A stretch of DNA of 33,991 nt, taken from NCBI GenBank assembly GCA_002722695.1, contig PBMS01000049.1, positions 1 to 33,991 of the forward strand. Direction: 5' to 3'. Source of the DNA: Methanobacteriota archaeon. Lineage in GTDB: Archaea > Thermoplasmatota > Poseidoniia > Poseidoniales > Poseidoniaceae. This document shows, one piece after another, positions 7,315-28,471 of the stretch (the stretch's first letter is position 1; the number at the start of each line of letters is the position of its first letter). The notes beneath the pieces are model-generated. The model saw only the letters and a list, made by a program, of their open reading frames with translations, was not told the origin of the DNA and ran no database searches. The position numbers were made by a program, and so were the translations under genes.

Positions 7315-7343
7315 TCCTTCTCCTTTCTCTTCTCCTCCAGCCA

Positions 7344-7369: not shown

Positions 7370-7393
7370 ATGGTGGGGGCTTTGGGTATCGTC

Positions 7394-9913: not shown

Positions 9914-10713
9914 TGTCAGAATTAAGAGTCAACACTATTAGATCAAACACTGCCGGCAAAGTTACCTTTAGCCAAGCGGTTGAGTTTGCTGGCAGCGTCG
10001 ATATCAAGCCAGGTGTAGATGAAGCCTTTACTATTGAAACAAGAAACAGTGGTGCTGCGCTGGGCAGGAAACTCACTCTGACTGGGTCTAAGTTAACTCT
10101 TGGTCCACTAGATGGATCAACCTACCCCACCAGCACTGGCTTTGAAATTCAAAAGGCAAATGGTCTTAATGCCATATCACTCAGCCCAACTGGAATTACA
10201 GTTGATTCAAGTGTTACCAGTATTGTTTTTGGAAGCAACACTAACATCACTTTCGGATCCGCTGCGGTTGGTGGAAATTTTGCTGTAGATGGAAATTGCA
10301 CTTTCGGCAATTCAAACTCAGACAGTCATACCATTAATGGCGACCTGACAGTTACTGGAACAATTAGCCAGCAACAAGGCTTGTCGCCTGGGTTTGGATT
10401 CCATGCGTTTGGAGAAGTAGAGGAGTCGGTGAGCAGTGGCACTTTGGCCGGCACTCCCACCTTGGCCAACGGCTCCGGCGGCATCAGCAACGTGTCACAC
10501 AACGCCGGCACATACACGGTCACCTTTGCTACCGCTACCGCAAACACAAACTACTCCCTTCTCATTTCTCCTCGGGACTCGATTGTTGCCAGTGGCCTGC
10601 CTCGAGCAACTGTTGAATCAATCGTCAAATCCACAACTGGATTTACCTTCCAAATATCAAACCACGCAAATGCCACCGGCACGATCGTGGTTGCATTCTC
10701 GGTGATGAAATAA
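9913..10713 (+). CDS. Short tail fibre-like protein 3
   Basis: 266 residues starting MSELRVNTIRSNTAGKVTF, nearly the same N-terminus as fibre-like protein 1, followed by a Gly/Ser/Thr/Asn-rich stalk (GGNFAVDGNCTFGN, HTINGDLTVTGTI). The C-terminal domain, about 65 residues, reads GTYTVTFATATANTNYSLLI, then KSTTGFTFQISN, then IVVAFSVMK. This is the tNYsl...tgFt...vvFsV pattern common in phage fibre tips. Likely receptor binding. It joins the adaptor gene by a one-base overlap. Confidence 0.7.
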   Translation: MSELRVNTIRSNTAGKVTFSQAVEFAGSVDIKPGVDEAFTIETRNSGAALGRKLTLTGSKLTLGPLDGSTYPTSTGFEIQKANGLNAISLSPTGITVDSSVTSIVFGSNTNITFGSAAVGGNFAVDGNCTFGNSNSDSHTINGDLTVTGTISQQQGLSPGFGFHAFGEVEESVSSGTLAGTPTLANGSGGISNVSHNAGTYTVTFATATANTNYSLLISPRDSIVASGLPRATVESIVKSTTGFTFQISNHANATGTIVVAFSVMK

Positions 10714-11339
10714 TGGCTTCAACAAAACTTGACCTGGTCAACGATGTACTTGAGCGAATCGGGAAACTCCCGGTATCTAACTTAGCCACAAACACCAACA
10801 GTTTGGCCGGCTTGGTCGAGCGAATGATCGACGCATCCGACCGAGAGCTGCAAGCCAGGGGTTGGCACTTCAACAGCAAACGCAACGTGCAGCTCACTGC
10901 CAACAGCGATGGCAGAATCATCATTGACACAATCGAAGGCTCCCGTGAAATCTTCCAAATCGATTCTGATGCAGAAGACGCTCACATTGACGTGGTTCGT
11001 CGAGACTCGATCTTGTACAACCTTAATGACAACACAGATCAGATCAGCAGCATCAAGGTTCAGTACACCTTCAAGGTCGATCTAGTCACTAATTCAGGCA
11101 GTGATCCAGTCGTACCAGAGTCATTTAGGAACTGGGTCGTCAGTAAGACTGCTCGTAGGTTTGATCGGTCGTACAACAAAGAGGACCGCATGACTCAGGT
11201 CTTGGTGGCCGAGGAGCAACTTGCACAATCCAACTTCTTCCGCGAAGAAATGCGGAACGCTGACGTTCGCGTTCTTGACACGGAAGACATGGCTCAGATT
11301 CGCGGTCGTCGCCGCACAATGAACAGGAGTATCTTCTAA
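10713..11339 (+). CDS. Tail tubular protein A / head-tail adaptor, T7 gp11-like (copy 1)
   Basis: 208 residues; T7 gp11 has 196. It would form the adaptor ring under the portal. Signatures are LDLVNDVLERIGKLPV at the N-terminus, IDASDRELQARGWHFNSKRN, and PESFRNWVVSKTARRFDRSY in the C-terminal half, followed by a helical tail. The gene directly after it is a second, diverged protein of the same architecture. One-base overlaps on both sides. Confidence 0.9.
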   Translation: MASTKLDLVNDVLERIGKLPVSNLATNTNSLAGLVERMIDASDRELQARGWHFNSKRNVQLTANSDGRIIIDTIEGSREIFQIDSDAEDAHIDVVRRDSILYNLNDNTDQISSIKVQYTFKVDLVTNSGSDPVVPESFRNWVVSKTARRFDRSYNKEDRMTQVLVAEEQLAQSNFFREEMRNADVRVLDTEDMAQIRGRRRTMNRSIF

Positions 11340-11986
11340 TGGCAGGCCCAGGATTCACATTCGTCGAGGCAATCAACGAGGTGGTGGAGACCATTGGCGA
11401 GTTCCCCATGAGCGGAGCCACTAAGCCATCGGGTCTGACCCCACCAGACACAACTTCGATTTATGCAAGAGCCGAAGAGTTCATTGACCGCTACAACAAG
11501 CGGGTTCAATCTCAGGGGTTCCCAGAGAACACAGTGTTTGGCAAGGCGTACACCCCGAATGGATCTGACAACAACAATGTGGATCTTGCCACGACTGTTC
11601 TAAGAATCCAGTCCAGCGGTCCAAGTGAACACCGAACCTTGGTACTTCGGGTGGACACCAGCGATAGCAGCACCCCTAAGATCTTCGACGCACGACTCAA
11701 CTCCTTCGACCTTGGAAGCACCAGCACTGTGTTCGTGGACCAGGTGGATCTGTTGGCGTTCGAGGATCTGACGCCTCACTTGCAGGACGTAATTATCGGG
11801 ATGGCCAAGGTGGCCTTCCAGCGCCGCATGCAGGGCAACCTGAACATGGACACCGCACTGATGCAGGAGTATGCTCAAGCCGAGGCACAGATCGAACGCA
11901 ACATCGCAGACATCTCTTCGCAACCATTCAACCAGCGGCCCATGGTTCCTGGCATGGGTCAGCCGCAGCAGCAACGTGAACGATGA
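11339..11986 (+). CDS. Second tail tubular protein A-like adaptor (copy 2)
   Basis: 215 residues. The architecture is that of gp11: FVEAINEVVETIGEFPMSG at the start, AEEFIDRYNKRVQSQGFPEN where copy 1 has the RELQARGW helix, then LVLRVDTSD...KIFDARLNSFDL, then LAFEDLTPHLQDVIIGMAKV and AFQRRMQGN. The latter matches the LxFEDLPxxxxxYIxxxAAxxFQxRxxG signature of tail tubular proteins A. It therefore looks like a paralogue or second family member of the preceding gene. The C-terminus is Gln-rich (GMGQPQQQRER). It overlaps the nozzle gene start by four bases. Confidence 0.75.
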   Translation: MAGPGFTFVEAINEVVETIGEFPMSGATKPSGLTPPDTTSIYARAEEFIDRYNKRVQSQGFPENTVFGKAYTPNGSDNNNVDLATTVLRIQSSGPSEHRTLVLRVDTSDSSTPKIFDARLNSFDLGSTSTVFVDQVDLLAFEDLTPHLQDVIIGMAKVAFQRRMQGNLNMDTALMQEYAQAEAQIERNIADISSQPFNQRPMVPGMGQPQQQRER

Positions 11987-14577
11987 CCACTAACAAGTTC
12001 ACCAACGTAGTCCAGAACCTGAACCAAGGCATCAGCCAACAGGATGCCGCGTTACGGTTTCCAGCTCAGGTGGAAGACGCCACGAACATAATCTTTGACA
12101 CTGCCTTGGGCGCTCGAAAACGTCACGGATCATTTACCAAGGGCGCTAGCAGCCCAATATCAAACGATTTCAAGTTCAAGATGCACAAGATTGAACGTGA
12201 CGATGATGAAGAGTATGCGGTGATTATTGGTCGGCAAGCCGATAGTGTCTTCTTGGAAGTGTTTGATTTGGTGAATGATGAATTCGCAACAACAAACCTT
12301 AATGGCCAGGCGGCAGCGTACTTGGCACAGAACAATCCCCAGTACGACGACTACCGACTGGTAACGATTGCGGACACAACATTCATCGTCAACACTCTGG
12401 TCAACACATCTTTGACTAGCACCAATAGCGTCATTGACAATTCAAAAATGCCAGTCTTGTTAAAGAGACTTACCCTTACGCCATTGGTCTTTGACTGTCA
12501 GCCTGCAACTTTTGAAAACAAATCATTTAGGCAACAAGTTATGACTGCCACCATGGCGAATTCAACCTCTGAAATCCCTGAAGTCGAGGATACCTTCGGT
12601 CTGCGAATAGCAAGAGTGGCAGCAGGTTCTAACAAAACTACTGAGTATAAATCGTCAGTGGCATCTCGCATGGCCCACACTGCGGGTGCGAAAGAAGTGC
12701 AAGAAGCCATTGAGGGTAACGGAATAGACGAAAGACGAACAAAGGTCAACGATCAAAATGAGCCGACTGAAGAGTTCGTTGTAGAGCCAAGTGGCAAACT
12801 TGGAATGACCCGTGATGGTGACGGAGGTATATCGCCTTCAAATCAATTCATGACACTTGGCAAAGTCATATGCACTGGCGGGCCGTTACTAAGCGAACCC
12901 GTGAAGATTAACTTCAGTGCGGATGTTGCGATAGACAGACTTTTAGAACCTGACTCATCGTTGAGTCCCGAAGTAAATGTTGCTATTACACGGGGTGATG
13001 ACAAGTCCGACCCTGCTCCAGAGTTTCTAAAACTTGGTCTTCCAATTCGAGATGTAACTTTCTTTCAGGGACGCTTGGCGTTTGCATCTGATGAGTTTGT
13101 TTCGTTTTCAAGAACTGACAATGTGTTTGCATACTTTCAGGAAACACCGATTGCACCTAATGCTGCGGACCCGATTGATCTACAGCTTGCCGCCAATGAC
13201 GTAAACATCGTGGACTATTGCGTCCCATACCGTGGGAGCATTCTGGTCTTCACAAAGTCTGGCCGGCAGTTTGAAATTGGATCGAACGGCGTGTTTACTC
13301 CAGATACGGCTACGGTGACTCCTGCAACAAAGTATGACATCAGGCCAGCTCGACCACAGCTTCTTGGTGACAGGATTTACATGGCAGGGGCTAAAGATCA
13401 AAGTAGCTCACTTCTTGAATACTTCTTTAGCGACAACGCCGTATCAAATGTTGCAGAAGACGTGTCATTGCAAGTTACAAACCTTCTGCCAAAAGACGTG
13501 ATTCGGATTGCTACATGCACTTCGCCATCGATGGTTTTCCTTCTGCCTCGCACTGCGGGAGATAGTGGAGACACCACTCTACCGCCCGTTGGTAACACTA
13601 CCCAATCGGTGCTTGACGGAGCCAACGATACGGACGGAACCGACTTTTGGTATGAATCTAATACTTGGCAAGGAGGTATTGCCCCAGGTCCAGACAGAAA
13701 CGCGGTGATTACTCCAGGTCACGTTGTTACTTTCGACGGCAACTACGACCCCCCTAGTTTCACTCAGATTTACAAAGAGCAAAATGACAGCATTGTTTCT
13801 GATATTTACGTTTACAACACCTACTTCCAAGGACGTGAACGTATTCAAAGCGCGTGGTCAAAGTTCAACTTCCAGGGTGACGCTATTCAAGACATCTTCT
13901 GTTTGGAAGACAAGTTACTTGTTCTTTGGAAGCACACCAGCCCAGCATCGGGTGTTACTCGATTGAAGATCGATCAGATCAACTTGGATAGTGAAGAAGT
14001 AACTTCAACTTTGCCGGCTGGATTTGAAGCCGCTAGAAATATCACGTTGGATCACATGTTTGTCATTGACTACACCAGTGGTTCCACGATCACTATTCCT
14101 GATGTGAGTGCTAGTGAAACCTATGACAAAATGGTGGGTCAAGATGGCACAGAATATAACATCACGCATGATGCAGCTTCCAACGGTATTACTTACAACG
14201 TGCCAGCGGGACTTGCACCGGGTTCGTACATCGTCGGAAGGTCTGTCAACGCTAATATTGTGATTTCTGAGCAAGTTGCCAGAACCCCTCAGAACAAACC
14301 AATAGTCAATGGAAGATTGACTTTGGACAAAGTTGTGGTTCGACACAACAACTCGGGTCCGTTCGACATCACCTTGAGCCACCGAACTCTTGCAACAACG
14401 CAAGTTCCCAACCGCGTGACTCAACGAACGTCAACAAGTGTTGATGAAGGGGATATCACGGTTCGTGTCAACGCCAAAGCCGAAGACACCAAGATCGAAA
14501 TTCGTTCTAACAACTCATACGAGATGATCATCAGTGGGTATGAAGCTCACGGATGGCACAACACAATTACGGAGTAG
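11983..14577 (+). CDS. Tail tubular protein B / tail nozzle, T7 gp12-like, with an internal insertion
   Basis: 864 residues (T7 gp12 has 794). It forms the tail nozzle below the adaptor. The N-terminal signature LNQGISQQDAALRFPAQVED, followed by GARKRHGS, is characteristic. LGLPIRDVTFFQGRLAFASD with VSFSRTDNVFAYF in the middle, and a short YFQGRERIQSAWSKFNFQGD motif further on, are also typical. Residues about 536-592 (from GNTTQSVLDGAND to TFDGNYDPP) interrupt the segment between MVFLLPR and IYVYNTYF. This insert has WYESNTWQGGIAPGPDRNAV, which recalls the start of a G8-type beta domain. The C-terminal part is beta-rich and ends in an ISGYEAHGWHN-type motif seen in this family. Confidence 0.92.
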   Translation: MTTNKFTNVVQNLNQGISQQDAALRFPAQVEDATNIIFDTALGARKRHGSFTKGASSPISNDFKFKMHKIERDDDEEYAVIIGRQADSVFLEVFDLVNDEFATTNLNGQAAAYLAQNNPQYDDYRLVTIADTTFIVNTLVNTSLTSTNSVIDNSKMPVLLKRLTLTPLVFDCQPATFENKSFRQQVMTATMANSTSEIPEVEDTFGLRIARVAAGSNKTTEYKSSVASRMAHTAGAKEVQEAIEGNGIDERRTKVNDQNEPTEEFVVEPSGKLGMTRDGDGGISPSNQFMTLGKVICTGGPLLSEPVKINFSADVAIDRLLEPDSSLSPEVNVAITRGDDKSDPAPEFLKLGLPIRDVTFFQGRLAFASDEFVSFSRTDNVFAYFQETPIAPNAADPIDLQLAANDVNIVDYCVPYRGSILVFTKSGRQFEIGSNGVFTPDTATVTPATKYDIRPARPQLLGDRIYMAGAKDQSSSLLEYFFSDNAVSNVAEDVSLQVTNLLPKDVIRIATCTSPSMVFLLPRTAGDSGDTTLPPVGNTTQSVLDGANDTDGTDFWYESNTWQGGIAPGPDRNAVITPGHVVTFDGNYDPPSFTQIYKEQNDSIVSDIYVYNTYFQGRERIQSAWSKFNFQGDAIQDIFCLEDKLLVLWKHTSPASGVTRLKIDQINLDSEEVTSTLPAGFEAARNITLDHMFVIDYTSGSTITIPDVSASETYDKMVGQDGTEYNITHDAASNGITYNVPAGLAPGSYIVGRSVNANIVISEQVARTPQNKPIVNGRLTLDKVVVRHNNSGPFDITLSHRTLATTQVPNRVTQRTSTSVDEGDITVRVNAKAEDTKIEIRSNNSYEMIISGYEAHGWHNTITE

Positions 14578-14579
14578 CC

Positions 14580-15152
14580 ATGGGTATTGAACTCGCAATC
14601 GCAAGCGCCATCGTGGGCGGTGCGGCTTCTGCGTCTCAGGCATCCCAAATGAACCGGGCTGCTCAGAATGCAGCAAGGCGAGCAGCCCAGCAAGCCGAAA
14701 AACGGTATGGGGCGATCCGAGAACGAGAGTTGATTCTGCGTGAACAGGTGTCCAAGCGATCTGACCAGCAACGCCTAGAGACCGTCAAGAGGTCTGCCCG
14801 AGAACGCGGTGCAAGACTGGCTGCTGCGGCTGGTGCTGGCGTTGGGTTCTCCGGTACGACTGCGACACAAGTCATGAATGTGTTTGACCGCCGGGACGAA
14901 CTCATGGCAACCATCGGGTCCAACACCATGTCTGACCTGAAGACGATTGCCTCCCAATCTCAGAACCAAATCTTTGACACTGAAGCCGCCATGCAGAACA
15001 CCATGGCTCAGGCGGAGTCGATGCTTTCATCCCCATTCCTTTCTGGTCTTTCAGGGGCGCTCAGTGGTGCTTCTGCCGGATACAACTTGGGTTCTGGCCT
15101 TGAGACGGCAGGCATTGGTCAGGGTTTCCAATTCATCCCTAGGAATCCATAA
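14580..15152 (+). CDS. Internal virion protein, T7 gp14-like
   Basis: 190 residues from ATG 14580, which has GGAG at 14571-14574. An in-frame ATG at 14553 lies inside the nozzle gene and has no good ribosome site. The N-terminus MGIELAIASAIVGGAASA is a Gly/Ala-rich hydrophobic segment, followed by an Ala/Gln/Arg-rich helix (AARRAAQQAEKRY, LRAA-like ARLAAAAGAGVGFSG). The composition and size (T7 gp14 has 196 residues) and the place just after the gp12-like gene match the ejected core protein that inserts in the outer membrane. The C-terminus is Gly/Ser-rich (FLSGLSGALSGASAGYNLG). Confidence 0.82.
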   Translation: MGIELAIASAIVGGAASASQASQMNRAAQNAARRAAQQAEKRYGAIRERELILREQVSKRSDQQRLETVKRSARERGARLAAAAGAGVGFSGTTATQVMNVFDRRDELMATIGSNTMSDLKTIASQSQNQIFDTEAAMQNTMAQAESMLSSPFLSGLSGALSGASAGYNLGSGLETAGIGQGFQFIPRNP

Positions 15153-15154
15153 AC

Positions 15155-17017
15155 ATGGCAAAGCGCAACGTACGACAGCAGATTCAAGAACAGGTCTTGC
15201 CGGGGTCTATCGCCCCGAGCATGTCAGCGCCTCAGGTTCCTTCGCTGTCGCTTGCAACCCAGATCCGACCTGAACGTCCAAGCCAGGAGCTGCGACAGAT
15301 CATGGGGGTCGTAGAGTCGCTTGGCCAGTTTGGGTCGACAATCCAGAGATACAACAAAGCCGAGGCTCTTGAGGAGTCTGGGTTCGCTGCTCGATCGTCC
15401 GTGGAGGACCGTGTGCCTCTGGTCGCGGCCCTTCGCAACGACACGCTAGACCAACTTGAGATCTCGCCGGCAAACGACCAAGCCGGTGTGGCTGCTGTCA
15501 CGATGGAGGATCTTCTGTTCAATGCCATCGGAGATGCTGACACCCCAGAGGTCGGGATTCAGAACTGGCTGACTGGGCTGTCAGAGCCAACCATGAGTTC
15601 GTTCCGGTCTGACGATGCCAGAGACACCTACGAGTCAGGCTTCTACAACCCAGTGTTGCAGGCTGCAAACGACTGGTATCAAGGCAAACTCCAAGAAAAG
15701 CAGGGGATCATCCTGCGGGGTGTCTCGGAAGGTTTGGCCGCGAACAACGATCCAGTCAATTTTGGTGACTTGAGGTCGGAGACTGAGAAGTCTGAGTTTG
15801 TTGGAACGCTTTCAGATCTTGAAACTTCTGCGGTGCTGGTGGACGCTGCATCTGTTGCGGTTGGCATGAGTCGGTTCAGCAGAGCAAACGATCTGCTCGA
15901 CCAGGTTCCAGAGTCAAACAGAGATGCCAACTGGTACAGGGCGTTCGGCCAGGCAAAAGAAGCATTGTCCCAAAGCGTGGGGGCATCAGTCACCAGCGAG
16001 CTGATGAACTTCGACATGGAGGCTGGCCCCCCAAACCTGAGTCAGACCGCCAGGTTCTTTGGTGAAGCCGAGCAAGATCCTGAGCTGGTCTCTGCTTTGA
16101 AAGTTTCGGTTAACACATACGCCGTCAACCCTGGAGTCATGCGTGAGGACAAACTGTCTGCACTTGGTCAGATGCTGGTCACCGTGTCGCCGTTCAGTTC
16201 AGCATGGAACGAAGTTAGCAACGCCATCGCACGGGTTCCTAACGAAGATTCCGAATCACAGCAGTTGGCTGACGCACGAAAAGAAAACAAGTATCAAGCC
16301 AAACTAATGTCACTTGAGCTGCTTCAGATGGGCAAAGTTGGAAACATTGACAGCGAAAATGATGGCTACGAAGCCCAGTACCGCCAGGTGCTAATCGACA
16401 AGTTTGGAGGTGACGGAAGAGACTTCTTCAACGACTACCAAGAACTCAAACTCAAAGAGCAGTATGCCGGCGACTCAAACGCGGACACCGACGCAACGGC
16501 TGCTGGCCTACTGCTTAAGATGCAGGAATTGTTTGACCCTACGCAGCAAAGAGAATTTATGAGAGGTGAAGTGTTTACCGCTGTCGAACAAGGCAAGATT
16601 ACGTTCGCAGACTTTAAGAGCATTATGGCCGCAGCAGAGGCGGAAAAGAAATTAGACGCCTTCAAAGAAACAAGATACCTTAAAGAATTAGAGAAAGACA
16701 TCGCGCAAACTTTCGTTGCAAGGACTGGGACTGAATCCGTCGTTGAAAATCTGGATGGTGTACTGTCTGTGTTATTAGGGGGGGATATTGACGAAGCAGC
16801 AGCGCGTCTCAAACTTAGAAGTTTGCTGTTCGATTTCAGAAATGACTACGCAACTTGGCTCAGAGAGAACGGCAGTTTGCTGGATTCTGATCCTGTTGAA
16901 TTCAATAAACAATTGCGAGAAGAGTTGAAAAGGCTTGGAGAGCTGTACATTCCACAGGCCGGAGATGCTGGCTACTACTTCTCTAGCGAAGCACAAGAAA
17001 ATAGGAATAATCCATGA
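15155..17017 (+). CDS. Internal virion protein, T7 gp15-like by position
   Basis: 620 residues, mostly helical and acidic (T7 gp15 has 747). It begins MAKRNVRQQIQEQVLPGSIA and has PSQELRQIMGVVESLGQFGS near residues 43-62, a start commonly seen in podoviral inner core proteins. It then has long helical segments with Trp/Tyr-rich spacing (FYNPVLQAANDWYQGKLQEK). No catalytic motif is visible. Assignment rests on size, composition and the gp14-gp15-gp16 order. It would line the periplasmic part of the ejection channel. Its end overlaps the giant gene (ATGA). Confidence 0.72.
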   Translation: MAKRNVRQQIQEQVLPGSIAPSMSAPQVPSLSLATQIRPERPSQELRQIMGVVESLGQFGSTIQRYNKAEALEESGFAARSSVEDRVPLVAALRNDTLDQLEISPANDQAGVAAVTMEDLLFNAIGDADTPEVGIQNWLTGLSEPTMSSFRSDDARDTYESGFYNPVLQAANDWYQGKLQEKQGIILRGVSEGLAANNDPVNFGDLRSETEKSEFVGTLSDLETSAVLVDAASVAVGMSRFSRANDLLDQVPESNRDANWYRAFGQAKEALSQSVGASVTSELMNFDMEAGPPNLSQTARFFGEAEQDPELVSALKVSVNTYAVNPGVMREDKLSALGQMLVTVSPFSSAWNEVSNAIARVPNEDSESQQLADARKENKYQAKLMSLELLQMGKVGNIDSENDGYEAQYRQVLIDKFGGDGRDFFNDYQELKLKEQYAGDSNADTDATAAGLLLKMQELFDPTQQREFMRGEVFTAVEQGKITFADFKSIMAAAEAEKKLDAFKETRYLKELEKDIAQTFVARTGTESVVENLDGVLSVLLGGDIDEAAARLKLRSLLFDFRNDYATWLRENGSLLDSDPVEFNKQLREELKRLGELYIPQAGDAGYYFSSEAQENRNNP

Positions 17018-20000
17018 GCGACGAATTGGTTGACATCGGACCAAACGAAGACGAACTCCGACTTCAAGAGGAGGTTGCCAAAGCGAAGGCGCTTGAAGCC
17101 AGTGCGCAACAAGAAGAGGACGACAAGATTCGTCTTGCTCAGTCGCTCGCTGAGTTTCAACGCAACAACCCGGACGTCAAAACCGATGGTCGAATCTTTG
17201 ACCCCGAAGACATTCCAACTGGACCAACTCTTGAGGCAATGCCAGCAGATGAAGCCAGAAGGTTTGAAGAAGAAACCAAACTAGAAGAAGCCAAACAAGA
17301 ATTCGTCGATGCTCCTGGGTCTACTTTGGGGTTGATTCAAGACACACCAGGTGGTCGGTTTGTAGCCGATCGTGCTTTCAAGTACGCCTACTACTGGGGC
17401 AACCGTGCCGACGAACCGTTCTGGGCCGTCCAGGCATTCAACGGTGATGGGATGATTGAGGATTACAACAACCCTTTCATGGGCGCTGTTCATTCGGTGC
17501 GTCGTGGTGCTACAAAGGGCGGTATCTCAATTGCCAACAGCCTGTACAGCTTTATGGGCGCTGACTTGGACTACCTGCCAAACCCCCAAACCGCCTTGAC
17601 TCCTGTTGATTATGGCGCTGAAGGAGAGGGAGCCGCCGACACGGTGTTCGCACTTTCTGAGGGCTTCTCTCAGTTCATGGTTCCGTTTGTCATGTCTGGG
17701 GGCAGCAGTGGTGGATTTACTCGGGCATACGGGGTTGGGGCAGTTATTGATTACAGCGCGTTTGACCCAAGGAATGGCAACGCCACCACGTTCCTTCGCG
17801 AACTAGGTGTTGGCAAAGAAACCCTTGCGAACTTAGATGCAAAAGAAGTTTACGAAAAGGATGGCGAATACTCTGCGCGACTTCGCAGTTTGGCTGAAGG
17901 TGGCGCGTTGGGTCTTGGTGCTGATGTCACTTTGAGAAGTGTCCTCCGTAGCTTGAAAGCGTTGAGAAGAATCGGAAGCGAAGCCGTTGAAGATGCTAGA
18001 AACTTCTCTAGGCTCAGAAAACTTCTGGATGTGAGCGGAGACAAAATTGGAGCAGGTGGGCCTACAGGTTTGCCGGCATCGATCTTAGACACGCCGTTGA
18101 GCCAAGAAGGCGCAAAGGCTTTCAACAGTTTGATCGCAAACTACCTCGCAAGAAATGCGAGGGCAGCAGAACTTCTTCGTAGAAATCCAGAAATCTCTGT
18201 CGCCAAAGTCCAATCCATAATAGAAGGGGAGTTCCCATCTCCTGAGATAGATGATTTGGCAAGAGATGCATTCGCCCAAGCGGCTTACACGACGGTTTTG
18301 GGTAGCCCAGCGGAAGCGCCTCTTGAAACCCTCCGTGCAGCATCACAGATGCTTGACCCAAACCGAACCTACATTCAAGGCACTGTGACTGAGGAACTTG
18401 GTCGCGAAGCAAATCAGGTGCTGTACCAATCTCAAGACCCACGCACCATGGCTGAGACGGTTGCACGAAGCGAGCGAAGCCAAGGGCCAGGCAGACTGTC
18501 TGCCGAGATGACGGCACAGATCAAAGCGTTTGCTGAAGAAAACGGATTGTCCAAAGCCAACGTGCAAGCACTTCGTGAGCGTGTTAGCCAGTCCCTGCAA
18601 GACTTTCCGCTGTCGGAGTGGGACAAGTTGGAGCCAGCCTCTGGAGCCACACCTTTCATCGCGTGGAAAGAAGGCGGGGTCGGAAAGTTTGACCCCAGGA
18701 ATCGAGATCTCCCGCAGGTGGACATTTCATTCGCGCCTCGACCCTACTCGTTTGCGGACACAAATCCCAAAAAAAGAACTGGCAAAAACGTACGCTTTGG
18801 ATCACCTGAAGCAGACGCTCGGGTAGATCAGATTGCAACACGCGGCGTTGCCGAGATTGATGCTTTGATGCAACGTGTTCAAGCTGGCGACATGCAGGCT
18901 CAAAACATTTACCATGCCCGAGGCTGGTATGCGGCCATGCGGAAACGTCTTGGCCGAGAGTGGGGTAACAGCGCCCCATTGTTTGCTGAACTCCTTGGGG
19001 CTTTGTCTCCTAGAACCAAGGTTGCCGAAAACTTTGCGTCAACTATTGATGTGATGCAGCAGTACTCTCGCGGTACGTTTGATGACCTGCTCAACGACTA
19101 TGTCACCCACTTGGACAATGGCGGCTCTTTCAAAGACTGGGTCGAAGGTGGCAACCCAATCATTGGTACTCGAGGACGAATGGCTTCCAACGCTGACTTC
19201 AGCGCCCAAGCGGGACTCAGTCGTTACGGCATCAACTCTCAAAAGGTGATGGACACTCTTGCCGGCCACTGGATCTCCAACCGATTCGATAGGTTCATCT
19301 TTGACCCTGACCAGGTCGACGACTACGTTCGACGCGGAATCCTGAAACTACCGTTCGACGAAAATGGTCGTATTGAAGCAGAGACGTTGAGAGAAATTGG
19401 ACTTGAAGCGTTTGAAGATTTGCCTCCTGAGTTTGAGCGGATGGGCTTCAGAGCCATCGTTGATGATCTGAAGTCTGCTCTGACGAAAGCAAAAGCAGGG
19501 GACTCACTTACTGAGACTCAAGATGCGTTGCTCCAGATCCTCGAGTCAGCCTCGTATCGTGGCGCTCAAAACCCTATCGAAGGTGCTGCTCCCAAAGCAA
19601 TCAACTTTGCTTTGAACTTGGGTGCATCAAGAAAAGGAAGCCGAGCTGGCGTAGCCGCTGTAACTCGTGCTGCAACAATTGACGTGTGGGCTGCGCGGTT
19701 CCTCAACCGCATGTCAGGCTCAAAGCCTGTGCCGCCAGCAGCAGAGCAAGGCGTGGCCGGCAACTTTGCTACAGCCAACCAGGCTGCTGACTTCAGGCTG
19801 GATGCTACATCGGATGCAGGCGCTGCCACCAGCCAGTTTGGTATTGGCCAACGAGCCATGGACGAGATTGCCACACGTCTTCGTGAGAAGTACCCAGAAG
19901 AGTTTGGAGACATGAGACCAGACGACCTTCAGGCCATGGTCTGGTTCCTCGAGAAAGAGCGATGGAGCAAGCGAGGCTGGACCAACTCCGCTGGCGCTGA

Positions 20001-23000
20001 TGGATCGTTTGACCTTGAGGCTGATAAGTTCTTCAGCAATGCAGAAACCGCGAGAGGATTGGGAGACCAAACGCTGGCGAATGCTCAATCGGATTTGACT
20101 GGACGTGTGACCCTGGGTGCATCAACAGTCACTGATAATCCACCTCGACAAATTGGAGACTTAGAAGTTCGAGCAGCATTGCCAGTGGACGATGCAGAAG
20201 CAACCACAATGATCGAAGCTGCTCTGAGTGCTGACGACACAGTGCTTGGATTCAATGTTGGCAAGAACACTGGATTGTTCCTCAAGGAAGGCGAAGACTC
20301 GATTGCTGCCGAAATCACATATGGCAGATTCCGAGGACTGGCTGGCCAACAGCAGTTTGACAGAGCATCAGGCCGCACTGTTTACCCGTTGCAGGAAGAA
20401 CCTACACTGCAAAGCATTCTTACTGTTGCTGCGGATTTGCAACAGAGGTTCCAGCAAGACAGCGTGATTGTCTCTCGTATTCTCGACAACACAACTACTG
20501 GAGACGGAGCTGTACCGCGAGACATGACGGTCGACGAACTGCTGACTCAGTTCCCCAACGCACGACCTGGTCTGGAAATATTCTTTGATTCACCAAAGAC
20601 CAGAGAAGAACTTTCTGCACTAATTGGCCGCATGGGCGGGCGAGTAGAAGGTCTCCAAACGATTCTGGATGTGCAGCCTGGTGCAACAAGGGCCGCAGAA
20701 TCAACAGACCGGATTATTGGAATCCGAACTCAGTTCATTCCCGAGTATGTATGGGGTCCAACAGAGCAAGCGCTAGACGCAAACACATACAAACTGCGGA
20801 TGGCTGAAAAGTTTGAAGAGTACTATGTTGATATATTCCGTGACGTTGCTCTAGTTGACGGTGTTGCACGGATCGATCCAATCGCTGTTGACACTGCCGT
20901 GATAGGCGACAGCCTGCAATACACACAGAAAGCTGATGAGGTATTAGGAAATGCTGAACGAGATGCTGAAGAAGTCGTTAGAGAAGTTTGGGACGGACGA
21001 CCCTGGAACGAAAGAACTTCAGGCCGCACTGAACCGCCGGAAAGCCCAGACGCCGGAGGCCCAAGAGAAGAACCGGATCCTCCTACAGACGGTGGCGACC
21101 AAACCCTCTACCAGTCAGACCCTTCGCAGCCGGGCGGAGAAATCGTCAACCCAGGCGGGCGTGCGATTGTCGACCAAGACGCAGGAGTCGCCATCCTCGG
21201 CTTCTACCGAGCAGCCGATGGCACAACAGCCATCCACGAAGCGGGACACGCCATCAGAGTCACCGCCTTCGGACGACGCTCCAAAGCAGGCATAGGGCCA
21301 GTACAGGAGGAATCTGTCCTCCGTGTCGAAGAGCAGTACGGCGTCAAAGGCGGCAACTGGACTCGGGCGCAAGAAGAGAAGTTCGCTGAAGACTTTGTGG
21401 CTTGGATTGCGGACGGCGGACCACGAGGCCAGCTCCACCGTGACTTGCCGGAAGGTGTCCAAGATGCATTTGAATTCGCTGGCGCACATACTCGAGAAGT
21501 TCTGAAAGACTCTCGGGATGCTGGCGTCAAAATGAATGCAACTGCCGGCAAGATGCTCGACGACTTGCTTGCAAACAATGTCTTGCCCCAGAAGTACGCA
21601 CCAGGTCGGTACGTTCGCATGGGCAACTTTGACAAATTGATCAAGCAGATCGAAGAGGCAGAGGCCGCAGGCGAGGACTGGACTCAGATTGTCAAGCCAG
21701 AGGACATCCTCGGCACGACCCGTGACAAACAACTGGCTGAAAGGTTTAGTGCGGAGACTCCAGAAGATGCTCTCAGAATGATCGCGTACATGAACGCATT
21801 CACCCGTGAGCTGATGGAACGGGACGTTCTGGTCCGACCACGCAACGTCGACGCAATGCGTCAGATGGCTATCGAGCGGTTGAACATGGCGCTTGGTCGA
21901 GACAATGTCGACATCGAGCAGACCATGAGCGAACTGCTCAGTGGCGTTGACATGCGAGTCACAACTGGGCAAGGGGCTTTGGACTCCAGAGTCATGGCTT
22001 CAAACATGCTGCTGGCCATGAAGGCACAGGCACTTGTGTCCGCTGCCAAGCGAGCCAAGGCTGGCGACAAGGTGGCGATCGCAGAAATGCACAGGGCGGC
22101 GCTGGAGTACCAGGTTGTTCAATCGTCCGTCGCTGCTGCTGGCACGAACTGGGGACGTGCTGGTGTGGCAATGCAGAATGTGAAGCTGCCATCTCCTGAC
22201 GAGTTGCAATCAGTCCAAACTGCTGACGCATTCTTGGTCTCACTTGGCATGGACGAAGGTGCTTTGGTTGGCGACAGCAACGCTCTTGCTGAAGCGTTGA
22301 CTCAAGTCGAATTGCCTGATGACTTGGGCTTCGTTGGCAAGGTTGTTCGTGAGATGGGCAAGAACGGAGGCAAAGTCAACAATCGTGCAATGAGCATGAT
22401 CCGAGAGTACTACGTCAACAACTTGCTTTCAGGACCAAAGACGTTCTTCACTCTTAGTGTGTTCTCACCAATGCTGAATCAAACCGTTGACTCTTTGAGC
22501 AAGACGATGGGGGCTATGGGAATGATGGCCACTGGAAACATCACTGGAGGCACGCAAGTCATTCGTGAGCAACTCAACGCTATTGGCTACGCTCGCCAGT
22601 CACTTGCTGCTTCGTTTGAATACATGGTCCGAACACTCAAGACTGGCGAGGCCACTCTTATGCCAGGCGTCCACTTGGATGACGCGACCAGAGGCCCAGC
22701 CATCCGATCAGACTCAAGCAACCCACTGATTCGTGGTGCTGTCAACGGAGTTGGTGCAATTGTTCGCACTCCATCCCGCGCGATCATGACGTTTGACGAG
22801 TTCTTCCGTCAGATGAACGCCAGGGTTGCTCTGTCTCAGAAGTTCATGCCGGAAGTTCAAGAGCGAGTTATCAAGGCTGCAATCGATCGAGGGGACTTGC
22901 CGCCAGAACCGACCAGCCTGCAACGGCAGTCTTACATCGCACAGAACCGATCAGACATTTCTCGACTGGTCGAGAATGAAGTGGACAATGTCATTCGTGA

Positions 23001-24687
23001 CGGTCGACTTCGTGACGGTTACACCATCATTGATGAAGCTGTCAACAGACCGGAGATCGCTGCGATTGACAATGAAGTCGACAGGATCAAGGCGATCCAA
23101 GACTATTACAACACGGAACACACCGACACTCACAGCAGGAACGTGGGATACGGCAAGGACTATGCGACCCGTGCGGTGTTCCAGGGGGAACTTGGTCCTC
23201 TTGGCAAGCAGATTCAGTCTTTCCTCGACAACTCCATGGGCGGCGCGCTGCGATTCGTTGTGCCATTCTTCAGAACACCTTGGAAGATTCAAGAAAAGTT
23301 CTTCTCGTTGGCTCCGACCAACGTGCTGGCTGAAGTTGTCAACAGAACCAGAAGACTGGTAGGCGGCGAAGGATTTACTCTTTCAAGAGACAATGCTCTT
23401 TTCAACGTTCACAGAGACACCATGGCTGACTTGGCTTCTGGTGACCCAAGACGTATTGCCGAAGCACGCGGTCGACAGATCTTTGGCACTGGCTTTGCGT
23501 TGTTCGCATACGACATTGCCCAAGACGAAGAGGTTGGTTTGACTGGCGGTGGTCCAATGGACTTCAACGAACGCGCACAGCTTCGAGAAACTGGTTGGCA
23601 ACCATACTCATTCCGTATCAAGACTGGCGATGATGAGAAGGGCGAGCCGGTCTACAAGTACCTGTCCTACACGGGGTGGGATCCCTTGGCTCAGTACTTG
23701 GCTATGGCTGCTGACACCTTTGAGTACCTCGAGGATCAGGCTGACAATCTTTCAGACAACGAAGGCGCGGCATTTATCTCATCGATGATCCACACTTTCG
23801 GCGCTCAGATGCACGAAAAGCCATACATTCAAGGCATTTCAAACCTGGCGAAGGTCATGCAGGACTCAGACCCAAGAATGCTGGAGAACTTCTTGCGAGG
23901 TCAGACCCAAGGCTTCATACCATTGGCGTCAGCTCAAGCTCAGATTGCCATGGCGAGAGACCCAATTGTCCGAGACTATCGAACCTACCTCGACTTCTTG
24001 CGTGGTAAGACCGCGATGTTCGGGAACCTGAACGAAGGCATCCCACCGAAGTACAACGCCTTGGGCGAGCCTGTTCGAGCTATGACCGAGACTTCGATGG
24101 ACGCCTCAATTCTTGGCATGCCGGCAAACTTCAACAACAGAATCAACGTCAGCAAGTTGTCTCTGATGACCGACGATCCCATCTTGAAAGAACTTGATCG
24201 GGCTGGCGTGGTTCTACGACCACCCAAACCTGTTTACCTCGGCACGCTGGACCTTCGTGAGATTCCGGCCACCGTGGGAGAGTTCACCGCCTACGACCAG
24301 TGGATGCGGAACATGACCAAAACATACCCATCACCAAAAGGCCCAGTAACCCTCAGAAGCACTCTGCAACTCTTTATTGATGAGATGGACGAGAAAGCCC
24401 CAGGATTCTTGAGATTTGACCCAGACCCTGTAACTGGCAAGATGCCAGCGGACAGCATCAAGTCAATCGTTTCGGGCTTCCGGCAACTGGCTTGGGCAAC
24501 AACTCTTCAAGAAAACCCAAAACTCAAGGCTGCTTGGCTTGAACTGAAGCAACAGCAAATTGACGCTTTGGATCAAAACATCCAAACCAACACTCCTGAA
24601 GGTTCGCCGCTGCGTAAACGATCTAGTAATGCCAGACAGCAAGTGAATCGCAGACTCGAAGCACTGATTGGAGGTCTTGACCAATGA
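17014..24687 (+). CDS. Giant internal virion / polyvalent ejection protein with HEAGH metallopeptidase motif (gp16-like position)
   Basis: 2557 residues, about twice T7 gp16 (1318), encoded where the last ejection protein belongs. Visible regions in order: an acidic N-terminal coiled segment to about residue 100; a domain around residues 610-900 with AELLGALSPRTKVAENF (about 658-674) and RAATIDVWAARFLNRMSG (about 884-901); a Pro/Gly/Glu-rich linker at about 1333-1385 ending in TLYQSDPSQPGG; then GFYRAADGTTAIHEAGHAIR, a zinc metallopeptidase HExxH with His1408, Glu1409 and His1412, and a possible third ligand Glu1459 (KFAEDFVAWI). The C-terminal third has NNLLSGPKTFFTLSVFSP, RAIMTFDEFFRQMNARVALS and VVPFFRTPWKIQEKFF, a set that recurs in very large phage virion proteins. 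I see no lysozyme/SLT domain. The architecture fits polyvalent proteins ejected into the host cell. Confidence 0.85.
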   Translation: MSDELVDIGPNEDELRLQEEVAKAKALEASAQQEEDDKIRLAQSLAEFQRNNPDVKTDGRIFDPEDIPTGPTLEAMPADEARRFEEETKLEEAKQEFVDAPGSTLGLIQDTPGGRFVADRAFKYAYYWGNRADEPFWAVQAFNGDGMIEDYNNPFMGAVHSVRRGATKGGISIANSLYSFMGADLDYLPNPQTALTPVDYGAEGEGAADTVFALSEGFSQFMVPFVMSGGSSGGFTRAYGVGAVIDYSAFDPRNGNATTFLRELGVGKETLANLDAKEVYEKDGEYSARLRSLAEGGALGLGADVTLRSVLRSLKALRRIGSEAVEDARNFSRLRKLLDVSGDKIGAGGPTGLPASILDTPLSQEGAKAFNSLIANYLARNARAAELLRRNPEISVAKVQSIIEGEFPSPEIDDLARDAFAQAAYTTVLGSPAEAPLETLRAASQMLDPNRTYIQGTVTEELGREANQVLYQSQDPRTMAETVARSERSQGPGRLSAEMTAQIKAFAEENGLSKANVQALRERVSQSLQDFPLSEWDKLEPASGATPFIAWKEGGVGKFDPRNRDLPQVDISFAPRPYSFADTNPKKRTGKNVRFGSPEADARVDQIATRGVAEIDALMQRVQAGDMQAQNIYHARGWYAAMRKRLGREWGNSAPLFAELLGALSPRTKVAENFASTIDVMQQYSRGTFDDLLNDYVTHLDNGGSFKDWVEGGNPIIGTRGRMASNADFSAQAGLSRYGINSQKVMDTLAGHWISNRFDRFIFDPDQVDDYVRRGILKLPFDENGRIEAETLREIGLEAFEDLPPEFERMGFRAIVDDLKSALTKAKAGDSLTETQDALLQILESASYRGAQNPIEGAAPKAINFALNLGASRKGSRAGVAAVTRAATIDVWAARFLNRMSGSKPVPPAAEQGVAGNFATANQAADFRLDATSDAGAATSQFGIGQRAMDEIATRLREKYPEEFGDMRPDDLQAMVWFLEKERWSKRGWTNSAGADGSFDLEADKFFSNAETARGLGDQTLANAQSDLTGRVTLGASTVTDNPPRQIGDLEVRAALPVDDAEATTMIEAALSADDTVLGFNVGKNTGLFLKEGEDSIAAEITYGRFRGLAGQQQFDRASGRTVYPLQEEPTLQSILTVAADLQQRFQQDSVIVSRILDNTTTGDGAVPRDMTVDELLTQFPNARPGLEIFFDSPKTREELSALIGRMGGRVEGLQTILDVQPGATRAAESTDRIIGIRTQFIPEYVWGPTEQALDANTYKLRMAEKFEEYYVDIFRDVALVDGVARIDPIAVDTAVIGDSLQYTQKADEVLGNAERDAEEVVREVWDGRPWNERTSGRTEPPESPDAGGPREEPDPPTDGGDQTLYQSDPSQPGGEIVNPGGRAIVDQDAGVAILGFYRAADGTTAIHEAGHAIRVTAFGRRSKAGIGPVQEESVLRVEEQYGVKGGNWTRAQEEKFAEDFVAWIADGGPRGQLHRDLPEGVQDAFEFAGAHTREVLKDSRDAGVKMNATAGKMLDDLLANNVLPQKYAPGRYVRMGNFDKLIKQIEEAEAAGEDWTQIVKPEDILGTTRDKQLAERFSAETPEDALRMIAYMNAFTRELMERDVLVRPRNVDAMRQMAIERLNMALGRDNVDIEQTMSELLSGVDMRVTTGQGALDSRVMASNMLLAMKAQALVSAAKRAKAGDKVAIAEMHRAALEYQVVQSSVAAAGTNWGRAGVAMQNVKLPSPDELQSVQTADAFLVSLGMDEGALVGDSNALAEALTQVELPDDLGFVGKVVREMGKNGGKVNNRAMSMIREYYVNNLLSGPKTFFTLSVFSPMLNQTVDSLSKTMGAMGMMATGNITGGTQVIREQLNAIGYARQSLAASFEYMVRTLKTGEATLMPGVHLDDATRGPAIRSDSSNPLIRGAVNGVGAIVRTPSRAIMTFDEFFRQMNARVALSQKFMPEVQERVIKAAIDRGDLPPEPTSLQRQSYIAQNRSDISRLVENEVDNVIRDGRLRDGYTIIDEAVNRPEIAAIDNEVDRIKAIQDYYNTEHTDTHSRNVGYGKDYATRAVFQGELGPLGKQIQSFLDNSMGGALRFVVPFFRTPWKIQEKFFSLAPTNVLAEVVNRTRRLVGGEGFTLSRDNALFNVHRDTMADLASGDPRRIAEARGRQIFGTGFALFAYDIAQDEEVGLTGGGPMDFNERAQLRETGWQPYSFRIKTGDDEKGEPVYKYLSYTGWDPLAQYLAMAADTFEYLEDQADNLSDNEGAAFISSMIHTFGAQMHEKPYIQGISNLAKVMQDSDPRMLENFLRGQTQGFIPLASAQAQIAMARDPIVRDYRTYLDFLRGKTAMFGNLNEGIPPKYNALGEPVRAMTETSMDASILGMPANFNNRINVSKLSLMTDDPILKELDRAGVVLRPPKPVYLGTLDLREIPATVGEFTAYDQWMRNMTKTYPSPKGPVTLRSTLQLFIDEMDEKAPGFLRFDPDPVTGKMPADSIKSIVSGFRQLAWATTLQENPKLKAAWLELKQQQIDALDQNIQTNTPEGSPLRKRSSNARQQVNRRLEALIGGLDQ

Positions 24688-24961: not shown

Positions 24962-25243
24962 ATGGAAGACACTCGTAGCGAAGGATACCCCTTCGTATTT
25001 GTCGACTGGGTCGACAGTTGTGAGCCAGTACCCAACTCTGATATCACCGCATACGAGTTGCCTGAGCCACAGAGGATCTTCCAAGCTGGTTTCTTGGTGG
25101 CGGACGCCGAGGACCATGTAACCATCGCAGGTGCAATCAAGCCTCAGTTAGAGACTTACGATTATGTGATCACGATCCCCAGGGTCGCGGTCGTTGCCAT
25201 CAGATATTTGCAACCTGCGGATGACAAAGAGATTGTGGGATGA
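24962..25243 (+). CDS. Small conserved phage protein of unknown function
   Basis: 93 residues. The layout is VFVDWVDSCEPVPNSDITAY, then FQAGFLVADAEDHVTIAGAI, then DYVITIPRVAVVAIRYL. Similar small proteins (W-x-D-S/A..., GxLVxxxDDxVTLAxT, IPKxxIxxIxxL) occur beside terminase or replication genes in many phages, with no known function. Ribosome site GGAG just before ATG 24962. The stop overlaps the phosphoesterase start. Confidence 0.75.
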   Translation: MEDTRSEGYPFVFVDWVDSCEPVPNSDITAYELPEPQRIFQAGFLVADAEDHVTIAGAIKPQLETYDYVITIPRVAVVAIRYLQPADDKEIVG

Positions 25244-26097
25244 AGTATTTACTGGAACCCATCTCCAGAACGGTGATGAATGTCCATATCGACGCACAAT
25301 CTCCCAAATTCGAGCAATGGTTCTTGCTTTCTTCGGACAGGCATCACGACAACGCACACACCGACTGGGATCTCGAAAAAAGACACTTGGATCAGTGCGT
25401 AGATCGTGGAGCTGGCATCATCGACGTTGGCGATTTGTTCTGCGCCATGCAGGGCAAGTGGGACAAACGGGCCGATCGGTCGGCGTTGCGAGAGGAGTAC
25501 CAGTATGGGCAGTACCTGGACCGATTGGTCGAGGTCGCGACCGAGTTTTACAGCCCGTACGCCAGGCAGTTTGTGCTGATCGGGCGAGGCAACCACGAAA
25601 CCGCGATCTGCAAACGGCACGAGACGGATCTGACGGATCGGTTGACTCAAGCTCTGATGACGAAGACGGGGGAAGAGGTCCATGCCGGCGGATATGGAGG
25701 CTGGGTCCGGTTTATCTTCAAGCGGACCAACACTTCCAAGAAAAGAATCAATCTGAAGTACTTCCATGGCTCTGGAGGCGGCGGACCTGTGACCCGTGGC
25801 GTGATTCAGACCAACCGAATGAGCGTGTTTCTACCGGACGCCCACCTGGTCGTGTCTGGTCACACGCACGATCAGTGGCAAGTCCCAATCGCCCGTGAGC
25901 GTCTGGCCAAAAATGGCGAGGTTTTCATGGACGAGCAGACGCACATTCGGTGCGGGACATACAAAGACGAGTACGGCGATGGATTTGGCGGTTGGCACAT
26001 TGAACGTGGCGGACCCCCAAAGCCAATCGGCGCTCAGTGGCTACGATTTTACCGAGACGGAACACACATCAAACACCAAGTAGTGAGGGCTGACTAA
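25240..26097 (+). CDS. Calcineurin-like metallophosphoesterase
   Basis: 285 residues with the ordered metal-binding motifs of the superfamily: SDRHHD (Asp33, His35), DVGD (Asp62, Asp65), GRGNHE (Asn118, His119), a lone His in KYFHGSGGGG and VSGHTHDQW (His208, His210). It would hydrolyse phosphodiester or phosphomonoester bonds with two metal ions; the substrate cannot be told from the sequence. The first motif is D-R-H rather than the usual D-x-H with Leu or Thr, but the ligands are kept. It sits between the small and large terminase genes, suggesting a role in DNA processing or anti-defence. The ATGA overlap shows it is part of the operon. Confidence 0.88.
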   Translation: MKYLLEPISRTVMNVHIDAQSPKFEQWFLLSSDRHHDNAHTDWDLEKRHLDQCVDRGAGIIDVGDLFCAMQGKWDKRADRSALREEYQYGQYLDRLVEVATEFYSPYARQFVLIGRGNHETAICKRHETDLTDRLTQALMTKTGEEVHAGGYGGWVRFIFKRTNTSKKRINLKYFHGSGGGGPVTRGVIQTNRMSVFLPDAHLVVSGHTHDQWQVPIARERLAKNGEVFMDEQTHIRCGTYKDEYGDGFGGWHIERGGPPKPIGAQWLRFYRDGTHIKHQVVRAD

Positions 26098-26807
26098 TGG
26101 CAGTTGCAACTGGAGATAGCAGCAACATTGATACCAAGACTTTGCTGCAATTTGTAGATGTCAACTCCGATCCTTGTGTTCGGTTGGATGGAGTGGTCAA
26201 CAAAAATCTTTCCAACAACAAAAGAGAGTTGTTTCATCCAAATGACACAATTGATGGCAAGTTTGCTTCTGATTTCCCCGGTTCGAGTAGCGGTTTGTTT
26301 TTGTCAGTGCTGCCCGGAGGATCTTTTCAATTCATCGCTGGAGATATAGATTCCGGTGATCAGACGATAGTCACTTTGGAATTCATTATCAGAGGCGAAA
26401 GTCAGTACAAATCGGGAGAAGTCTTCCGAGAGTGCAACCCATTTGTAGAAATTTATGGTGCTTACCGAGACCTTTTGTTCGGCAGCTTTGTGTTTCAATT
26501 TATTTTCCCAGGGGGGCCAAATGCTGTTCCACCAGACGGCGCTTCGGCTGGAGATTCCACCATCGATGGTGATGTAAAATTTCAAACGATCGAAAATTAC
26601 ATTGGCTCAACTAATGCTGGTCCTCTTCCCAAACTAACTATGGCTGTCAGAGACCATACAAATGCTTTTGCCAGTAGCTTCAACAGTCTGGATACTGGTG
26701 GGGCGGTGACATTTGTATTTACATTCCCCAAGGGTTTAGACGCAAACAAGCCATGTGGCCGTGATCGGCTGGCTGGAACTGCTGGAAGGCTTCGGACCCG
26801 ACGATGA
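26097..26807 (+). CDS. Unknown protein between phosphoesterase and large terminase
   Basis: 236 residues, no recognised family. It starts one base into the phosphoesterase stop and ends with an ATGA overlap on the large terminase. It is rich in Gly, Ser, Phe and Asp with beta-type segments (GLFLSVLPGGSFQFIAGDID, TIVTLEFIIRGESQY, LFGSFVFQFIFPGGP, AVTFVFTFPKGLD), so a beta-sandwich virion or carbohydrate-binding-like protein is possible. The DNA is visibly richer in A and T than the flanking terminase and phosphoesterase genes, which may mean separate acquisition. The last 15 residues are Arg-rich and overlie the approach to the terminase start. Confidence 0.65.
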   Translation: MAVATGDSSNIDTKTLLQFVDVNSDPCVRLDGVVNKNLSNNKRELFHPNDTIDGKFASDFPGSSSGLFLSVLPGGSFQFIAGDIDSGDQTIVTLEFIIRGESQYKSGEVFRECNPFVEIYGAYRDLLFGSFVFQFIFPGGPNAVPPDGASAGDSTIDGDVKFQTIENYIGSTNAGPLPKLTMAVRDHTNAFASSFNSLDTGGAVTFVFTFPKGLDANKPCGRDRLAGTAGRLRTRR

Positions 26808-28471
26808 ACCAAGAGGAGAAGGCCCGTGAACTCATCTCAAGACTCGCGAATGACTTCGAGTTCTTCCTTGAAACGCTCTGGGTCGAGATCGGACTACCGC
26901 CGATCGCAGAACACCAGAGGTGGATCGCGAGGTTCCTCCAAGACGGGCCACGCCGGCGGGGGATACGAGCGTTCCGTGGGGCGTCGAAGACGTTTGTGAC
27001 TCTGGGATACGCCACCTGGCGTCTCTTCAGGAACCCCAACGAGCGGGTTCTGATCATCTCCAAGTCAGAAAAGCACTCCAAAGACTCCCTGTACATGGTG
27101 CGAAAGTGGATTGGACAAGTGCCATGGCTCCAGCACATGACCCCCGACCGCAAGGGGGGGCAGCGGGATAGCGCCACCAAGTTTGATATTGGGACTTCGG
27201 ACAACGACCGGACGCCATCATTCACCGCCGCCTCCATCACGGGCCAGATCACTGGGTCTCGAGCAAGCCTGATCATCGGTGACGACATCGAATCGATGCA
27301 GAACTCGATGACCTACGAGATGCGAGAGCGTCTTCGGAACGAAGTCACCGAGCTGGACAACATCATCGTCCCTGGCGGTGACGTGATTTTCCTAGGGACG
27401 CCGTTTCACCAAGAGTCGCTGTACGACAAGATGATGGACGCGGGCTACAAGTTCCAGTGCTACCCCGCTAGGATCCCGCAGGAGAGCGAGCAGACCGACG
27501 ACCTGGCCCCTGAGATTCAGGAGTTGATGTACGACGGCATGAGGCCAGGAACGCCCGTATGGCCGGCACGGTTTGATGACGACGAACTGACTGAGCGTGA
27601 GGCTTCTGAGGGTCGATCTCTGTTTGCCATGCAGTACATGCTCATGACCAAGCTGACTGATGGTCTTGAATACCCGCTCAAGCTGGCGGACCTGGTCTGC
27701 ATGCACACCGAAACCAGTTCAGCGCCCATGACCGTAGCGTGGGGGATGACTGACAAGTACGGATCTTCGACCCGGATGGAGGAGATCCCCAGTCTGGGCT
27801 TCGGATCAGACGGGTTCCACTCCCCAATCATGTACTCCGATGACTGGTCCGAGTACACGGGCGTCAAGATGTGGGTTGACCCCTCTGGCCGAGGCGCTGA
27901 TAAGACCGCATTCGCCATCATTGGCGAGCTGAACGGCTATCTGCACGTTCTGAGGCTGTCTGGCCTTGAGGGAGGCTACTCCTCTGGTGTGCTGTCCTCG
28001 CTGGCGAACGAGGCCAAGCGGCACGGTGTACGCGAGATCTTCGTCGAAGACAACTTCGGGCAGGGGATGTTCGTGGAGTTGTTCCAGCCATACATCCATC
28101 GACTGTTTGACGACGATTGGGGAGCGTCAATCAACACGGTTCGGGTTGCCGGCCAGAAGGAAGTGCGGATTCTGTCCGCCTTGGAGCCGATCACGAACCA
28201 ACACCGGCTGATCATTCCGCCGGCGATCGCCACGGATCAGGAGTTTCAGCGGCAGTACACGCGACTCACCCGAGAACGCAACTGCCTGAAGCACGATGAC
28301 GAGATCGAAGCACTTGCCATGTGCGTCAAAATGTGGCAAGAGTCGATGGGCGTCGACCCCCAGATCACTGCGGAGAGAAGAAGATCGGAAGCCAAGGAGC
28401 AGGCTCTCCGTGAGCATTACGAGGCAATGGGTCTCGCATGCATGCCAGCTCCAAGATTTATACAACACTGA
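26804..28471 (+). CDS. Terminase large subunit, T7 gp19-like
   Basis: 555 residues (T7 gp19 has 586). This is the ATPase motor and nuclease that packages DNA through the portal. Walker A region AFRGASKTF (Gly59, Lys62, Thr63), followed by the Walker B-type SLIIGDDIE (Asp160, Asp161, Glu163). The nuclease domain has MWVDPSGRGADKTAFAI (Asp359), VEDNFGQGMF (Glu415) and LKHDDEIEAL (Asp498), equivalent to MVDPSGRGKDETGYAV, ESNFGDGMF and LKHDDRLDAL of T7. The P-loop reads G-A-S-K-T rather than the T7-type G-x-G-K-S. Starts by an ATGA overlap. Confidence 0.96.
   Translation: MNQEEKARELISRLANDFEFFLETLWVEIGLPPIAEHQRWIARFLQDGPRRRGIRAFRGASKTFVTLGYATWRLFRNPNERVLIISKSEKHSKDSLYMVRKWIGQVPWLQHMTPDRKGGQRDSATKFDIGTSDNDRTPSFTAASITGQITGSRASLIIGDDIESMQNSMTYEMRERLRNEVTELDNIIVPGGDVIFLGTPFHQESLYDKMMDAGYKFQCYPARIPQESEQTDDLAPEIQELMYDGMRPGTPVWPARFDDDELTEREASEGRSLFAMQYMLMTKLTDGLEYPLKLADLVCMHTETSSAPMTVAWGMTDKYGSSTRMEEIPSLGFGSDGFHSPIMYSDDWSEYTGVKMWVDPSGRGADKTAFAIIGELNGYLHVLRLSGLEGGYSSGVLSSLANEAKRHGVREIFVEDNFGQGMFVELFQPYIHRLFDDDWGASINTVRVAGQKEVRILSALEPITNQHRLIIPPAIATDQEFQRQYTRLTRERNCLKHDDEIEALAMCVKMWQESMGVDPQITAERRRSEAKEQALREHYEAMGLACMPAPRFIQH

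Follow-up and report, generated by a model that had tools for sequence, protein, structure and literature searches.

A predicted zincin-type metallopeptidase and DUF7178-like cargo joined to a T7 gp16-like core in a giant phage ejection protein

Two kinds of phage protein are among those closest to the one described here. Polyvalent proteins are encoded among virion genes and join unrelated domains in one large polypeptide, and those bearing a metallopeptidase module (MPTase) are an already published kind; the core of this module consists of three strands followed by a helix bearing HExxH and a further helix that supplies a Glu (Iyer et al. 2017, PMC5512222), and of its proposed functions self-processing was named first, with host targets as a possibility. 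The second kind comprises T7 gp16, an ejection protein of 1318 aa, and gp16-like proteins, which span 609-1337 aa among those listed and of which the N-terminal transglycosylase is phage-specific (PMC8954989).

The window analyzed here (i.e., the whole stretch of 33,991 nucleotides) is contig 49 of a 1.63-Mb assembly that is 71% complete, and it carries a giant gene of a short-tailed marine phage at 17014..24687 (+ strand, as are the virion and terminase genes and all parts of the giant protein located below) that encodes 2557 aa. The open reading frame contains no internal stop, its ATG start overlaps the stop of the preceding gene, full-length homologues exist (L003, L005/L007, L038, L039, L041, and L042), and the whole source assembly and an independent IMG/VR contig both show it without any change. 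We consider it somewhat probable, for the reading as a whole, that the product is a polyvalent ejection protein in which a gp16 core carries protease cargo and which most likely cuts itself at or near its linkers. By sequence, with support from structural modeling, it is polyvalent, since it has at least two unrelated domains and virion-gene neighbors, its activities and delivery being predicted.

The late block follows a T7-like order, running from RNA polymerase through portal, capsid protein, tail tube, nozzle (11983..14577; PF25675, E 5.9e-82), a gp14-like internal virion protein (14553..15152; PF24072, E 8.9e-10), and a 620-aa protein at the gp15 position (15155..17017; 4-base overlap with the giant gene) to the giant gene, small terminase, large terminase (26804..28471), and then a tyrosine integrase. 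The giant gene occupies the same gene block in five of five further relatives (P0003, L038, L039, L041, and L042). Several other features of the window were observed alongside. Two adjacent gp11-like tail-tube genes (10713-11339 and 11339-11986, both phrog_446) are present, and such pairs also occur in relatives L016, L110, and L111; T7 has one gp11 tail-tube gene. A phosphoesterase/exonuclease-like gene (25240-26097; phrog_7339) lies between the terminase genes, with 62-72% identity to its counterparts in the same three relatives, and a small gene between the capsid and tail genes (8577-9167) gave weak beta-solenoid matches (FapA and an ice-binding-like adhesin). A second phage contig in the same assembly (L008, G000 contig C33) encodes an ordinary-size gp16-like protein at 7257-9410, with 28% identity and no HExxH; its presence casts doubt on assigning the window's phage to a host.

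The C-terminal core of the giant protein (residues ~1790-2557, 22381..24684) matched phrog_6651, an internal virion protein family, with an E value of 1.3e-21, and tblastn found internal virion protein D of pelagiphages and roseophages. The motifs NNLLSGPKTFF, DEFF, and PFFRTP, which the preliminary description placed after HEAGH, were located in this gp16-like part. None of the solved T7 gp16 chains was matched by profile search, so that the assignment to gp16 depends on two things, the match to the annotated gp16-like family and the order of the genes; by these two measures, the core and its locus are those of a T7 gp16-like ejection protein. The protein resembles T7 gp16 and pelagiphage internal virion protein D in its C-terminal core and in the nozzle-gp14-gp15-gp16 order upstream of the terminase genes. 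Unlike T7 gp16, it lacks a detectable N-terminal transglycosylase and has ~1790 extra residues N-terminal of the core; searches of Pfam, PHROGs, and PDB sequences gave no lysozyme or transglycosylase match, in agreement with the earlier observation that no lysozyme domain is seen. The initial estimate of about twice the usual gp16 size also holds against the published range, and the gp16-like protein of Pelagibacter phage HTVC200P measures 1201 aa by its annotated coordinates.

A Pfam search gave no match to the giant protein (P0001). The N-terminal region (residues 1-469, 17014..18420) has no known domain and is the fastest evolving part, with a dN/dS of 0.42 versus L003 (residues 1-472). The region linking protease and gp16 core (residues 1521-1789, 21574..22380) is strongly conserved (dN/dS 0.06 versus L003). 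The complete architecture is common to P0003, which is 42% identical to the giant protein, L038, L039, L041, L042, and the near-identical L003.

Residues 1380-1500 (21151..21513) are predicted, from sequence and modeling, to form a zincin-type metallopeptidase of the polyvalent MPTase kind, with an intact-looking catalytic set that would bind zinc and support catalysis. The HEAGH motif reported previously was found at residues 1408-1412 (21235..21249), where H1408 and H1412 are the predicted zinc ligands and E1409 the predicted general base; the chance expectation for HExxH from the composition of the giant protein is 0.006 motifs, so that its occurrence is not accidental. In an alignment of 15 divergent homologues, H1408, E1409, H1412, and E1455 (21376..21378) were invariant, together with a Gly, a Thr, and A1458, and the HExxH residues and E1455 were also invariant in six full-length gp16-type proteins, in which the counterparts of HEAGH read HEMGH (P0003) or HE[VLF][GS]H (L038, L039, L041, and L042). 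Glu1459, proposed at the outset as the third zinc ligand, did not withstand this comparison: the position is E, Q, and D in P0001, P0002, and P0003, respectively, and among four more relatives it is D, E, R, and D. Glu1455, by contrast, is conserved in 15/15 aligned homologues and is now the predicted third ligand.

Consistently, an AlphaFold2 model of homologue L039 (57-sequence alignment; mean pLDDT 83, pTM 0.74) contained three strands, the HELGH sequence on one helix (model residues 741-745), and Glu780, the counterpart of E1455 in the alignment, on an adjacent helix, an arrangement like that of the published MPTase core. In a profile search against PDB sequences, several of the 17 matches listed were zinc metallopeptidases or metalloproteases (lethal factor, 9urd, YME1, Spartan, and 4on1); the best match was weak (E 0.03), and the E of its EFFAEAF pairs with E1455. 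Foldseek with the three-domain L039 model, which is dominated by the middle domain, returned no zincin among the best 50 of 368 PDB matches, and the fold assignment is therefore based on the motif, predicted secondary structure, and conservation, each sequence or PDB match being weak when taken singly. The domain is under purifying selection (dN/dS 0.15) and occurs in ~100 viral ORFs of the sequences searched here.

Upstream of the peptidase lies a module comprising a helical N-terminal part (residues 474-597, 18433..18804; delimited by alignment, with helices in the models), a DUF7178-like helical domain (residues 598-1008, 18805..20037; supported by the AlphaFold2 model of L039), and an alpha/beta domain that usually follows DUF7178 (residues 1009-1345, 20038..21048; RPG-EIYF and G-R-Q--PE motifs). 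The Pfam score for DUF7178 (PF23802) was 28.0 bits in L039 against a cut-off of 27 and 23.0 bits in P0003; P0001 gave no match, and its version is longer than DUF7178, with an insertion of ~95 residues. K861, N868, D890, W892, R895, LQAxxW, and EKExW are invariant in the DUF7178-like domain, and 431 viral stretches encode relatives of the 598-1008 region. Pfam DUF7178 and Q_salvage searches of host-phylum genomes gave no DUF7178 match and little information, and our literature search found no paper on the family. The alpha/beta domain appears ferredoxin-like by Foldseek matches, all of them weak (dimeric alpha/beta barrels, HPPK, and phage SAM lyase). Two further arrangements of the DUF7178 module were noted, namely a 3119-aa phage protein with glucosaminidase, InPase, and ART-PolyVal domains (L104:3190-12546) and a PcfJ-like domain with the module fused behind it (L017:2628-8630).

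We also considered the identification of the DUF7178-like domain as an HhH-GPD glycosylase and rejected it, retaining it as no more than a lead. The invariant K861 and D890 lie at the N-termini of successive helices, as in HhH-GPD N-glycosylases (a resemblance only), and in P0003, L039, and most relatives the Lys and Asp are 18 residues apart, matching the spacing in EndoIII from the host clade; P0001 has an 11-residue insert between them. The idea originated from this spacing and from DUF2419, a queuine salvage enzyme, as the top Foldseek match (prob 0.41) of a poor model. A good model of the region gave no such match among the best 50 Foldseek matches, and hhalign probability against EndoIII/MutY-type sets was below 1%, no better than controls. 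Profile matches of the domain to designed TPR proteins in the PDB were likewise dismissed, as an artefact of repeat composition.

The same metallopeptidase module occurs in other phages with ART-PolyVal, LPD22, and InPase, as in published polyvalent proteins; more specifically, the span from DUF7178 to MPTase is also found in giant proteins carrying these three domains, and Foldseek against viral models returned proteins annotated as "large polyvalent protein associated domain" and inorganic pyrophosphatase. Unlike published polyvalent proteins, the giant protein is fused to a T7-gp16-like core, has DUF7178 and an alpha/beta domain as cargo, and is itself matched by no Pfam polyvalent model. 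By tblastn, the MPTase was found in Caudoviricetes vir555 (vir555_00054; E 1e-4) and, weakly, in Bbp10 of Bordetella phage BPP-1 and gp32 of Cobetia phage Carin1, each of which is a giant at the gp16 position with a motif of the form HESGH or HEIGH ... HE[QK][FW]A. The C-terminal family of BPP-1 and vir555 is phrog_9880, in contrast to phrog_6651 here, and the cargo also differs (PBECR5 in Carin1 and an ART-like domain in vir555).

The LYQS linker noted previously before HEAGH is present (residues 1365-1368, 21106..21117), and LYQS in fact occurs twice, each time N-terminal to a different module, the other copy preceding the DUF7178 module (residues 470-473, 18421..18432). L-x-Q stands at both places in 6/6 gp16-type proteins, with Q1367 invariant, and the two sites are alike within a protein, i.e., LYQS/LYQS (P0001 and P0003), LNQS/LNQA (L042), and LHQD/LRQD (L039 and L041), the exception being L038 (LFQR/FLQA). 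Over a set of 58 non-redundant MPTase ORFs, [LF][FYN]Q was found just upstream of the MPTase in 25/57 (2.5 expected), and L[FYN]Q outside the MPTase was enriched 2.1-fold relative to ORFs without MPTase versus 1.1-fold for permuted motifs, although MPTase-bearing ORFs are mutually related and P values consequently overstate the enrichment. Covariation of the linkers, measured as matches to a protein's own trimer, was significant but modest (54 seen versus 33 expected), and the reversed trimer was also raised (39 versus 28). The L-x-Q before the MPTase sits in a predicted strand of the L039 model and may simply be part of the fold.

Self-processing is the function that we favor for the peptidase, because the DUF7178 and protease modules are bordered by L-x-Q linkers and because a cut at Q1367 would leave a product of ~1190 aa, the size of an ordinary gp16; as sequence features, the linkers lean this way weakly. 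In the favored mechanism, the gp16-like core (C-terminal ~770 aa) would be packed in the head, ejected, and help to build the DNA channel, and the portion N-terminal of it (the N-terminal region, the DUF7178-like and alpha/beta module, and the zincin metallopeptidase) would be cargo. The peptidase would cut its own polypeptide at or near the L-Y-Q-S linkers before or during injection, thereby freeing cargo from the gp16-sized product. We infer the virion location, cleavage target, and cleavage timing. Among known proteins, P1 DdrB is cut before packaging, and the MPTase-bearing N4 virion RNA polymerase is packaged uncut, which counts against self-processing here (PMC5512222). The N4 case further lends itself to a structural or packaging role with little or no catalysis, as the region with the MPTase is needed for encapsidation; we regard such a role as unlikely in the present protein, since even very distant homologues keep the four catalytic residues without exception, which a purely structural element would not need. 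A still more speculative extension of self-processing, to which we attach little credence, is that L-x-Q serves as a general signal for processing between the domains of MPTase polyvalent proteins and that the freed DUF7178 acts, N-glycosylase-like, on host nucleic acid or nucleotides.

The preliminary description had seen a polyvalent, virion-associated, metallopeptidase-bearing protein, and this much has good support from gene position, the gp16-like core, the conserved HExxH...E, and a module shared with polyvalent giants. Its suggestion that host defence or wall proteins could be the target found no backing here, and no target or defence link was seen. An injected effector that cleaves host defence or regulatory proteins, with the polypeptide intact or cut elsewhere, is conceivable if rather doubtful: polyvalent MPTases have been proposed as possible host-targeting effectors (PMC5512222), and the gp16 position leads one to expect entry of the protein into the cell together with the DNA, but the variety of cargo domains joined to the peptidase is more in keeping with processing. 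Least probable of all, in our view, is a wall endopeptidase that replaces the missing gp16 transglycosylase and opens peptidoglycan at ejection. No lysozyme domain was detected at the gp15 position either, and BPP-1 and Carin1 differ in that their gp15-position protein is annotated as endolysin or lysozyme; however, these two phages hold the same peptidase in addition to that neighbor, which makes a wall target unlikely, and the peptidase resembles no peptidoglycan endopeptidase family in Pfam or the PDB.

Relative to published MPTase polyvalent proteins, four points are new: in this lineage the protein is fused to a T7-gp16-like core; the third ligand is corrected; DUF7178 with its alpha/beta domain emerges as a cargo that polyvalent proteins often carry; and the L-x-Q linkers offer cut sites that can be tested. 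The giant protein brings together polyvalent conflict proteins and the ejectosome of the T7 type, which have been studied separately. If a gp16-like protein carries a protease and DUF7178, enzyme cargo would arrive with each ejection in a known stoichiometry, and the conserved L-x-Q linkers make self-processing by polyvalent metallopeptidases directly testable. DUF7178 and its alpha/beta partner, encoded in hundreds of viral contigs, would be a widespread injected-protein candidate.
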